This document shows positions 43,193 through 44,849 of a stretch of DNA of 64,000 bases, in pieces. The stretch comes from Rhodospirillales bacterium BBD 1991-14. Lineage in GTDB: Bacteria; Pseudomonadota; Alphaproteobacteria; Kiloniellales; Kiloniellaceae. Within the stretch, counting starts at the first letter, position 1. Each line of letters opens with the position of its first letter. The DNA lies in NCBI GenBank assembly GCA_001657395.1, contig LYSY01000001.1:682001-746000 (forward strand), written 5' to 3'. Below the pieces are notes generated by a model. That model saw only the letters and a list, made by a program, of their open reading frames with translations. It did not search any database and had not been told where the DNA came from. A program made the translations under genes and the position numbers.

Positions 43193-44380
43193 CTAGGGTT
43201 CTGTCACCTGCCGCAGATGTTCAGCCAGGTTCGCTCTGAGGATGTCCGCGGACGGCCCTTTGCCAAGGCGCAAGGCAACGCTGCCGCCGGCGGCCTCCTC
43301 CGGCCCGACCACGGCGAAGCCGGGGATGCCCAGGTTGCGGGCGTCCATCACTTTCTTGCCAAGGCGCTCGCCGCGGATGTCGGCAACAGCCCGCAGACCG
43401 GCGGCCGAAAGATCCGCCGCGACCGCCTCCGCATAGGCCGCCTGCTCCGGGCCGACGGAGGCCACCGCCACCTGGTCCGGGGCCAGCCAGAACGGCAGGT
43501 TTCCGCCGTGGTGCTCCAGCAACACGCCCAGGAAGCGTTCGATGCTGCCCAGCACGGCCTGGTGCAGCATGATGGGGCGATGCCGCTTTCCATCGCTGTC
43601 CGTGAAGGCTGCGTCCAGGCGTTCCGGTAAAACGAGATCGACCTGGATTGTGCCGCACTGCCAGGAGCGCCCTTTGATATCCCGCAGCACGAACTCCAGC
43701 TTCGGCCCGTAAAAGGCGCCCTCACCCGGCTGCAGCCTGTAGTCCAGGCCGGCCGCCGTGGCGGCCACGGCCAGCATGTCCTCGGCCCGGTCCCAGACCG
43801 CGTCCTCCCCGGCGCGCTGATCCGGCCGCGTGGAGAGCCCGACCGTCACGTCCTCGAAGCCGAAGCGGGCATAGACCGCCTTCAGCAGGCGGCAGAACTG
43901 CGCCACCTCCTCTTCCACATGCTCTTCCAGGCAGAAGATGTGGGCGTCGTCCTGCACGAAGGCGCGGGTGCGCATCAGCCCCAGCAGGGCGCCGGAGGGT
44001 TCGTTGCGCAGGCAGGCACCGAACTCCGACAGCCTGAGCGGCAGGTCGCGGAAGGAGCGCAGCCGGCTCTTGAAGATCTGGACGTGGCCCGGGCAGTTCA
44101 TCGGCTTGAGGGCACGCTGCTGGGCGCCGTCCTCGAAGACGAACATTTCTTCCGAGAACTTCTGCCAGTGGCCGCTGGCTTCCCAGAGGGCGCGGTCGAG
44201 GAGCTGCGGCGTCCGCACCTCCTTAAAGCCGGCGGCACGCATGCGCTTGCGGATCTCCTCCTCGATCAACTGGTAGATCACGAAGCCGCGGGGATGCCAG
44301 AAGATCATTCCCGGCCCCTCTTCCTGCTGGTGGAAGAGATCCATGCGCCGGGCGATGACGCGGTGGTCCTGGTCTTCCAT
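43193..44380 (-). CDS. thrS: Short threonyl-tRNA synthetase lacking TGS and editing domains
   Basis: The 395-residue protein aligns with the catalytic and anticodon-binding parts of ThrRS only; usual length is about 640. Motif 1 region lies at FWHPRGFVIYQ, motif 2 at LRNEPSGALLGLMR and motif 3 at GSIERFLG. The three zinc ligands that select threonine are kept: Cys in MNCPGH, His in QDDAHIFC, His in IMLHQA. The anticodon domain (about 295-395) is complete. The N1 (TGS-like) and N2 (editing) domains are absent, so serine misacylated to tRNA-Thr could not be cleared in cis. ATG 44380 has GAGAGAGG at 9 nt; ATG 44389 touches that site. An apparent Thr attenuator precedes it. It is probably a paralogue of a full-length ThrRS elsewhere. 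Confidence 0.9.
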   Translation of the reverse strand: MEDQDHRVIARRMDLFHQQEEGPGMIFWHPRGFVIYQLIEEEIRKRMRAAGFKEVRTPQLLDRALWEASGHWQKFSEEMFVFEDGAQQRALKPMNCPGHVQIFKSRLRSFRDLPLRLSEFGACLRNEPSGALLGLMRTRAFVQDDAHIFCLEEHVEEEVAQFCRLLKAVYARFGFEDVTVGLSTRPDQRAGEDAVWDRAEDMLAVAATAAGLDYRLQPGEGAFYGPKLEFVLRDIKGRSWQCGTIQVDLVLPERLDAAFTDSDGKRHRPIMLHQAVLGSIERFLGVLLEHHGGNLPFWLAPDQVAVASVGPEQAAYAEAVAADLSAAGLRAVADIRGERLGKKVMDARNLGIPGFAVVGPEEAAGGSVALRLGKGPSADILRANLAEHLRQVTEP

Positions 44381-44436
44381 TGTCTTCATCCTCTCTCGCG
44401 TTGGCGGAGCGTGCTGGAGACGACGGAACCGGAATC

Positions 44437-44466
44437 AAAAAAGGCCCCGTCGTTTCCGGCGGAGCC
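44437..44466 (-). terminator. Attenuator terminator in the leader of the short thrS gene
   Basis: On the minus strand GGCTCCGCCG, loop GAAA, CGACGGGGCC (10 positions, one G-U and one mismatch) is followed by TTTTTT. It lies 30 nt after the stop codon of the Thr-rich leader peptide and 56 bp before the start of the synthetase gene, so it can only end transcription before that gene is reached. Confidence 0.78.
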
Positions 44467-44516
44467 CCGTCTGGGTGTTGGTTCAAGCTGTCGAAATCAG
44501 CGCAACAAAACCCTCC
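44461..44516 (-). promoter_or_regulatory. Candidate antiterminator helix
   Basis: On the minus strand GGAG (44516-44513) can pair with CTCC (44464-44461) of the terminator's 5' arm. The nested pairs GGGT with ACCC (44513-44510 and 44476-44473) and GTTG with CAAC (44506-44503 and 44480-44477) share G44513 with GGAG, so not all pairs form at once. Forming it would break the terminator. A ribosome that reaches the leader stop codon would cover the upstream half; one stalled at the Thr codons would not. Proposed from complementarity only. Confidence 0.45.
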
Positions 44517-44580
44517 GCGGCCCGCCGGTGCGGGTCGTGGTAGTGGTGGTGGTCGCAGTGATGACGGCCAAGCGGTTCAT
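44497..44580 (-). CDS. Threonine-rich leader peptide (27 residues) of the thrS attenuator
   Basis: ATG 44580 opens a 28-codon frame: MNRLAVITA, then seven successive Thr codons (ACC ACC ACC ACT ACC ACG ACC), then RTGGPRRVLLR and TGA. Nine of 27 residues are threonine. The only protein-coding gene downstream on this transcript is a threonyl-tRNA synthetase. An in-frame ATG at 44592 would add four residues (MSLP). No ribosome binding site is visible, but a promoter 7 nt upstream would start the mRNA at or near the A of ATG 44580, which would make it leaderless, as known for trpL in Sinorhizobium. This fits a classical stalling peptide that senses charged tRNA-Thr. Confidence 0.72.
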   Translation of the reverse strand: MNRLAVITATTTTTTTRTGGPRRVLLR

Positions 44581-44587
44581 GGGCAGA

Positions 44588-44616
44588 GACATAGTCGATC
44601 CGGCGAGAAATGCCAA
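44588..44616 (-). promoter_or_regulatory. Candidate promoter of the Thr leader and short thrS
   Basis: On the minus strand: -35 TTGGCA (44616-44611), 17-bp spacer, -10 TATGTC (44593-44588). The distance from -10 to ATG 44580 is 7 nt, so the likely start nucleotide is that A. The -35 is one base from consensus and the -10 is weak (three of six). Confidence 0.5.
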
Positions 44617-44723
44617 GGATTGTTACCGCCTGGATACTTTGAAGGCTCAGGCCCGTTGCACCAGACGGCTCTTGCAAGCCTCGTGGTCCAGCGACCCGAA
44701 AGGCGGCCTTTTGTCCCATGTCA

Positions 44724-44806
44724 CCCTCGGGCTTGACCCGAGGGTCCATGTTTCGAGAGACCGGGTCTCTGGATCCGCGATGGATGCTCGGGTCAAGCCC
44801 GAGCAT
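44724..44806. repeat. Mosaic palindromic intergenic repeat
   Basis: Three palindromes follow each other: CCCTCGGG-CTTGA-CCCGAGGG (44724-44744), AGAGACC-G-GGTCTCT (44756-44770) and ATGCTCGGG-TCAAG-CCCGAGCAT (44784-44806). The outer two contain the same 17-mer in inverted orientation (CTCGGGCTTGACCCGAG and its complement), so the unit is a palindrome of palindromes, like a BIME. Such CTCGGGCTTGACCCGAG repeats recur in many alphaproteobacterial intergenic regions (from memory). It lies upstream of the thrS attenuator. Confidence 0.75.
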
Positions 44807-44849
44807 GACAGTGTTGGACGTAAGACTTTCGGCCTTCGCTTGGGGCCGG

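Follow-up and report, generated by a model that had tools for sequence, protein, structure and literature searches.

A conserved threonine leader, very probably a transcription attenuator, in front of a short threonyl-tRNA synthetase gene

The short synthetase gene and its leader

The minus strand of the 64-kb window (the whole stretch of DNA that was analysed) carries a gene for a short threonyl-tRNA synthetase (ThrRS), here called thrS2, preceded by a small reading frame and a series of RNA hairpins. Table 1 presents an overview of these features. The thrS2 product, about 395 amino acids in length, comprises the class II catalytic core and the anticodon-binding domain, and is identified as a ThrRS by its match to NCBIfam TIGR00418 (453.5 bits). 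It has neither the TGS domain nor the editing domain of a full-length bacterial ThrRS, and its extent is the same as that of the truncated E. coli ThrRS construct 1evk. Neither the zinc ligands (Cys/His/His) nor the arginines of motifs 2 and 3 vary among the 22 short ThrRS compared, so that the short enzymes should, judging by their sequences, be active and zinc-dependent. With the ligands invariant, zinc sparing was rejected as the reason for a spare ThrRS.

The earlier note on this DNA did not mention that thrS2 is a truncated paralog beside two full-length copies, whose frames comprise 655 and 677 codons in the source genome. The 677-codon frame (L003, contig C8) is the third ThrRS copy of that genome, full-length and divergent, and groups with a copy from an Azospirillaceae MAG (L025) rather than with the family's own ThrRS. 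A second, full-length ThrRS is present in 20 of the 23 genomes with a short thrS, and the remaining three are assemblies that are 81-88% complete. In a tree of 131 proteins, the short ThrRS form a single clade with a branch SH-aLRT of 100, a value to be read with a long-branch warning.

Table 1. Features of thrS2 and its leader region, in window coordinates.
Feature	Position	Strand	Remarks
-35 hexamer TTGGCA	44611..44616	minus	TTG kept in 22/23 relatives
-10 hexamer TATGTC	44588..44593	minus	17 nt from -35; ends 7 nt before leader AUG
Leader ORF MNRLAVITATTTTTTTRTGGPRRVLLR, then stop	44497..44580	minus	27 codons; no Shine-Dalgarno; predicted leaderless; homologues at all short-thrS loci
Control codons, seven Thr in a row	44533..44553	minus	9 Thr in whole leader ORF
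1:2 (pause/protector) hairpin CCCGC-ACCG-GCGGG	44521..44534	minus	5' arm overlaps end of Thr run
Segment 2, CGGCGGGCC, antiterminator 5' core	44519..44527	minus	nearly invariant
Inner antiterminator stem, 5' arm GGGTTTTGTTGCGCTG	44498..44513	minus	folding against shuffles
Inner antiterminator stem, 3' arm CAGCTTGAACCAACACCC	44473..44490	minus	folding
Segment 3, GGGGCTCCGCCG	44457..44468	minus	pairs with segment 2 in antiterminator, with segment 4 in terminator
Terminator hairpin	44443..44468	minus	GC-rich; followed by TTTTTT at 44437-44442
Segment 4, CGACGGGGCC + U6, intrinsic terminator 3' arm	44437..44452	minus	
thrS2, short threonyl-tRNA synthetase	43193..44380	minus	conserved start MEDQDH at 44380; alternative in-frame ATG at 44389

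Reading of the minus strand confirms the order of parts first proposed for this site, namely a promoter (TTGGCA-17-TATGTC), a 27-residue leader with seven consecutive threonine codons and, after an antiterminator and a terminator with TTTTTT, thrS. A purine-rich Shine-Dalgarno sequence lies between the U run and the thrS2 start. As an attenuator would, the short reading frame holds consecutive codons for the amino acid of the downstream gene, and nowhere else in the window, in any of six frames, do six or more threonine codons follow one another. Under a first-order Markov simulation, 0.017 runs of at least six are expected per 64 kb, and a run of seven appeared in none of 60 simulations, so that the seven-codon run is not expected by chance. 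Among the leaders of relatives the threonine codons are ACC (85), ACG (43) and ACT (13), and within the run the entropy is 1.01 at third positions against 0.36 and 0.58 at the other two, as expected if the peptide sequence rather than the DNA is conserved. The peptides have conserved C-termini and freely divergent N-termini. Some relatives have few threonine codons, with three in L172 and four in L170, L168 and L175.

The promoter is placed in a consistent manner. In all 23 leaders the best sigma-70-like -10 element ends 6-10 nt before the AUG and no Shine-Dalgarno sequence precedes it, and the promoter spacer is 17 in 18 of them. The 1296 control ATGs average 4.6/12 hexamer matches and the leaders 8.2/12, and scores of at least 8 occur at 78% of leaders and 0.7% of controls. 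Given the spacing of the -10 element and the missing Shine-Dalgarno sequence in all 23 cases, the leader mRNA is likely leaderless, with its start at or beside the AUG. Upstream of the promoter, inverted repeats are found at window positions 44720-44810 around CTCGGGCTTGACCCGAG and CCCTCGGGTCAAGCCCGAGGG. A related copy is located upstream of the ortholog in L088, and these repeats are probably a dispersed palindromic element.

Distribution and pairing of the element

The short thrS genes were collected by protein similarity alone, and at each of the first 12 loci a leader rich in Thr and a terminator occupy the corresponding position. The seed set drew on short orthologs within the genus (n=4, 80-95% identity), other families of the order (n=4) and other orders (n=3), with leaders such as MISFAVITATTTTTRNGGPRGVLLC, MIERFAAVQTTTTTTRKGGPPCFALR, MARHFVTTTTTTTTCLGGPCRMVVR and MHRVAHLCTTTTTTTRFGGPDGVVMR. 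A covariance model, R1, was built from 12 short-thrS upstream sequences and used to scan 385 genomes of the class. In an independent survey of these genomes at the protein level, the matches listed, which extend to E about 2e-142, include at least 12 ThrRS frames of fewer than 520 codons, and an R1 match lies directly upstream of all 12 (four already in the first set, eight additional). Protein searches also located the same module on large plasmids of Burkholderia arboris and Caballeronia sp. SBC1 (MNARFVTTTTTTTTTANGGLGGGCTS; MNSHFFTLTTATTTTTFSGGSSGGRAR), an occurrence in the Burkholderiaceae that suggests horizontal transfer. In total, all 22 short thrS loci that protein similarity alone brought up carry the element, in several alphaproteobacterial orders as well as in Burkholderia and Caballeronia. 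Further R1 matches precede short thrS in another family, in genomes of 6-9 Mb, and in a single genome from outside the class. None of 60 non-short thrS loci has an R1 match upstream, the best score there being 18.5 bits and situated elsewhere; among thrS loci, the short form alone is immediately preceded by the element. Comparison with relatives had been proposed as the check on this site, and the Thr run, the promoter position, the terminator, the 1:2 hairpin and the antiterminator are found in all short-thrS relatives.

Outside thrS loci, R1 matches upstream of asd, the gene for aspartate-semialdehyde dehydrogenase (L140, L142, L150, L152, L154, L155, L157, L163 and L164, each at about 1420-1610 on the match strand). 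The asd leaders are rich in Lys, Thr and Met, as in MMRFATKTTTTKTTTFGGPARTCA, MLTLNLKRKTTKKTAIGGASRGSAR and MIRIATTTMTTKKATRFGGLPRGMS, and S. meliloti SEP5 (PMC10117765) is probably the same element. A family of leaderless-looking short ORFs (L149, L158, L185, L186, L189 and L190; e.g. MIKTSCASWTRKHMTRSRWAVEGVVR) shares the hairpin and terminator architecture, and the same terminator follows leaders with MTRSGG or HSGG motifs (L141, L146, L148 and L159; e.g. MFAQMHARKNAAMTRSGGPCGEFVR). Outside the class, the gene that follows the threonine leader, MNQPRIASTTTTTTARGGS, and the terminator of L187 (about 1420-1620) is not thrS but encodes an isochorismatase-like hydrolase. In L188 (about 1440-1610), a leader of the same architecture, MRSFRIQLVNLLPTASGGPVRDVVR, lies about 0.7 kb upstream of an ilvC-like gene. 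The weak matches L127, L130, L131, L132, L134 and L135 (about 28-33 bits) have no convincing leader ORF and were taken as chance.

The RNA pairings were examined in 23 sequences aligned to R1. In this alignment, which is fitted by construction to the OFF structure (1:2 hairpin plus terminator) and consists of related sequences, 97.1% of the cells are paired. Six pairs changed on both sides, the covariation score was reached by none of 500 shuffles, and sliding the structure out of register lowers the paired cells to 29-57%. Taken separately, the terminator helix is 97.4% paired across the 23 sequences and the 1:2 hairpin 96.5%, the latter with two-sided changes at three of its five pairs. The U tract is weak in the relatives L115 and L116. 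The 1:2 hairpin, absent from the earlier note, closes the logic of the attenuator, being placed where a ribosome on the control codons would disrupt it.

The antiterminator and the intrinsic terminator share a strand and are mutually exclusive. Since a fixed-column count gave no two-sided changes in the core pairs of segments 2 and 3, this helix was judged by individual folds, and its core, GGCGGGCC/GGCCCCGCC, is present in the minimum free energy structure of all 23 sequences. The inner antiterminator stem is stabler than dinucleotide shuffles in 22 of 23 (mean z -2.3). Both the near invariance of segment 2 and the missing two-sided changes would follow if each segment is tied to two partners, segment 2 to 1 and 3, and segment 3 to 2 and 4. 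The antiterminator first drawn for this site needs revision in part. Its GGGT/ACCC and GTTG/CAAC pairings do lie in the inner stem, but GGAG/CTCC is not the core; it is not conserved and, when forced, reaches -22.5 kcal/mol against -33.5 kcal/mol for CGGCGGGCC with GGGGCTCCGCCG.

Attenuation and its alternatives

Taken together, these features make it very probable that thrS2 is governed by ribosome-mediated attenuation of transcription, as in the trp and thr leader-peptide systems. In the mechanism that we infer, which extends to the start site, translation of the leader, stalling, the efficiency of termination and induction by low charging of Thr-tRNA, RNA polymerase would start at or beside the leader AUG and a ribosome would translate the leaderless message. 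With plentiful Thr-tRNA, the ribosome would reach the stop codon and sit on the inner antiterminator strand, leaving segments 3 and 4 to form the terminator, and transcription would end before thrS2. With scarce Thr-tRNA, it would stall in the Thr run, its footprint hiding the 5' arm of the 1:2 hairpin, and segment 2 could then pair with segment 3 while segment 4 is still to be transcribed, so that polymerase would read through into thrS2.

This logic was modelled by folding with the nucleotides under a ribosome masked, the front edge being set 12 nt past the A site. The complete leader of the window is predicted to form the antiterminator for stalls at eight of the nine Thr codons, and the terminator when the ribosome is at the stop or absent. 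At equilibrium, the complete leaders of most relatives return to the terminator; stalling favours the antiterminator at any codon in only 9 of 29 species, and at a majority of codons in three, the window included. Because so few switch at equilibrium, the attenuation model needs co-transcriptional kinetics. In partial transcripts that end at segment 3, a stalled ribosome gives the antiterminator at most Thr codons in 29 of 29 species, against 9 of 29 with the ribosome at the stop and 10 of 29 with no ribosome. These predictions support the attenuation logic, short of proof, and the covariation and the modelled folding agree with the stall in the Thr run proposed in the earlier note.

One improbable alternative is that the leader yields a trans-acting small RNA or peptide, as with rnTrpL and peTrpL of Sinorhizobium, and that control of thrS2 is secondary. 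A terminated leaderless transcript would resemble rnTrpL (PMC7298713), and the conserved C-termini of the leader peptides could be read in the same way. However, it is the conserved RNA segments that determine the C-terminal residues, the N-termini diverge freely, and among thrS loci the element is confined to the position directly before short thrS. A product acting in trans would in any case be compatible with attenuation. Slightly less probable still is that the promoter and terminator merely fix a constant low level of expression, the Thr run having no sensing role. While every species has a strong terminator, and equilibrium folding prefers it in most of them, such an arrangement would not account for Thr codons kept through synonymous changes or for the upkeep of a costly three-way complementarity, and the similarly built asd leaders carry Lys and Thr codons instead. 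ThrRS genes are commonly controlled by a T-box in Firmicutes and by a translational operator in E. coli, but a T-box, a riboswitch or an E. coli-type operator is very hard to credit for thrS2, since no Rfam family is significant in a 2-kb stretch around the site and the short ThrRS does not have the N-terminal domains. In that Rfam search, the T-box model had no match at the site, the enterobacterial thr operon leader (Thr_leader) had none at E up to 1, and the sole match was a spurious ctRNA (19.5 bits).

If attenuation induces thrS2 at low Thr-tRNA, the spare ThrRS would be a backup for the full-length enzyme, induced by starvation or inhibition. A bolder and rather doubtful extension is a mobile emergency synthetase module in which either starvation or inhibition of the main ThrRS, sensed by the attenuator as a lack of Thr-tRNA, would lead to expression of a ThrRS that does not proofread. 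Such a module would allow translation to continue at the cost of serine misincorporation for threonine, unless the full-length ThrRS edits in trans.

Relation to known attenuators

The pheST operon of E. coli is the classical synthetase attenuator. With pheST and the E. coli thr, trp and his leaders, the thrS2 element shares the run of cognate codons, the alternative 1:2, 2:3 and 3:4 hairpins and the intrinsic terminator before the gene, and with pheST it also shares a synthetase target. It differs from the E. coli leaders in its threonine signal, its truncated ThrRS paralog as target, its predicted leaderless start and the lack of a match to Rfam Thr_leader.

The earlier note knew of no such control for a ThrRS. 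This is too strong, since attenuators have been proposed for thrL-thrS of Streptomyces lividans (PMC8079986) and predicted for trpS and leuS of Streptomyces (PMC1262725). In S. lividans, a leaderless 18-amino-acid ORF with two Thr was proposed from RNA-seq as a threonine-dependent attenuator, with termination described as unclear (PMC8079986); here, in contrast, the Thr runs are long, the terminator and antiterminator are clear, the ThrRS is a short paralog and conservation is broad. Attenuators are also predicted for Bacillus hisS paralogs, on the duplicated copies (PMC2965389), and a leader CDS precedes trpS in Caulobacter (PMC4117421). Like thrS2, Streptomyces trpS and leuS and these Bacillus and Caulobacter synthetase genes follow leader peptides, but they concern other amino acids and the module of an editing-less short ThrRS is not among them. 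In the literature accessible without subscription, no description of a threonine attenuator before an alphaproteobacterial thrS was found.

Turning to alphaproteobacterial leaders, the trpL mRNA of Sinorhizobium meliloti starts at its AUG (PMC7298713, PMC10117765), and SEP5, with six Thr and three Lys codons, precedes the aspartate (semialdehyde) dehydrogenase gene (PMC10117765). Unlike thrS2, both trpL/rnTrpL and SEP5 serve biosynthetic genes and not a synthetase. In the T1/T2 pair of Anabaena, the accurate ThrRS is constitutive and the editing-deficient one inducible (PMC4787780), which shows one way in which two ThrRS of this sort can work side by side. T2 retains an impaired editing domain and responds to zinc (PMC4787780), whereas the short ThrRS has no editing domain, keeps its zinc ligands and is apparently controlled by the charging of Thr-tRNA.

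The thrS2 leader offers a clear and testable case of an alphaproteobacterial synthetase gene controlled through a leader peptide by the charging of its own tRNA, and it would place a clade of editing-less ThrRS paralogs in a regulatory context. With a predicted leaderless start, translation of the leader can be tested directly in these bacteria, and R1, which finds related attenuators before asd, can help in the annotation of small ORFs. For synthetases, control by a leader peptide is already known or predicted elsewhere, and the alphaproteobacterial threonine module is a well-conserved and strongly supported addition to it.
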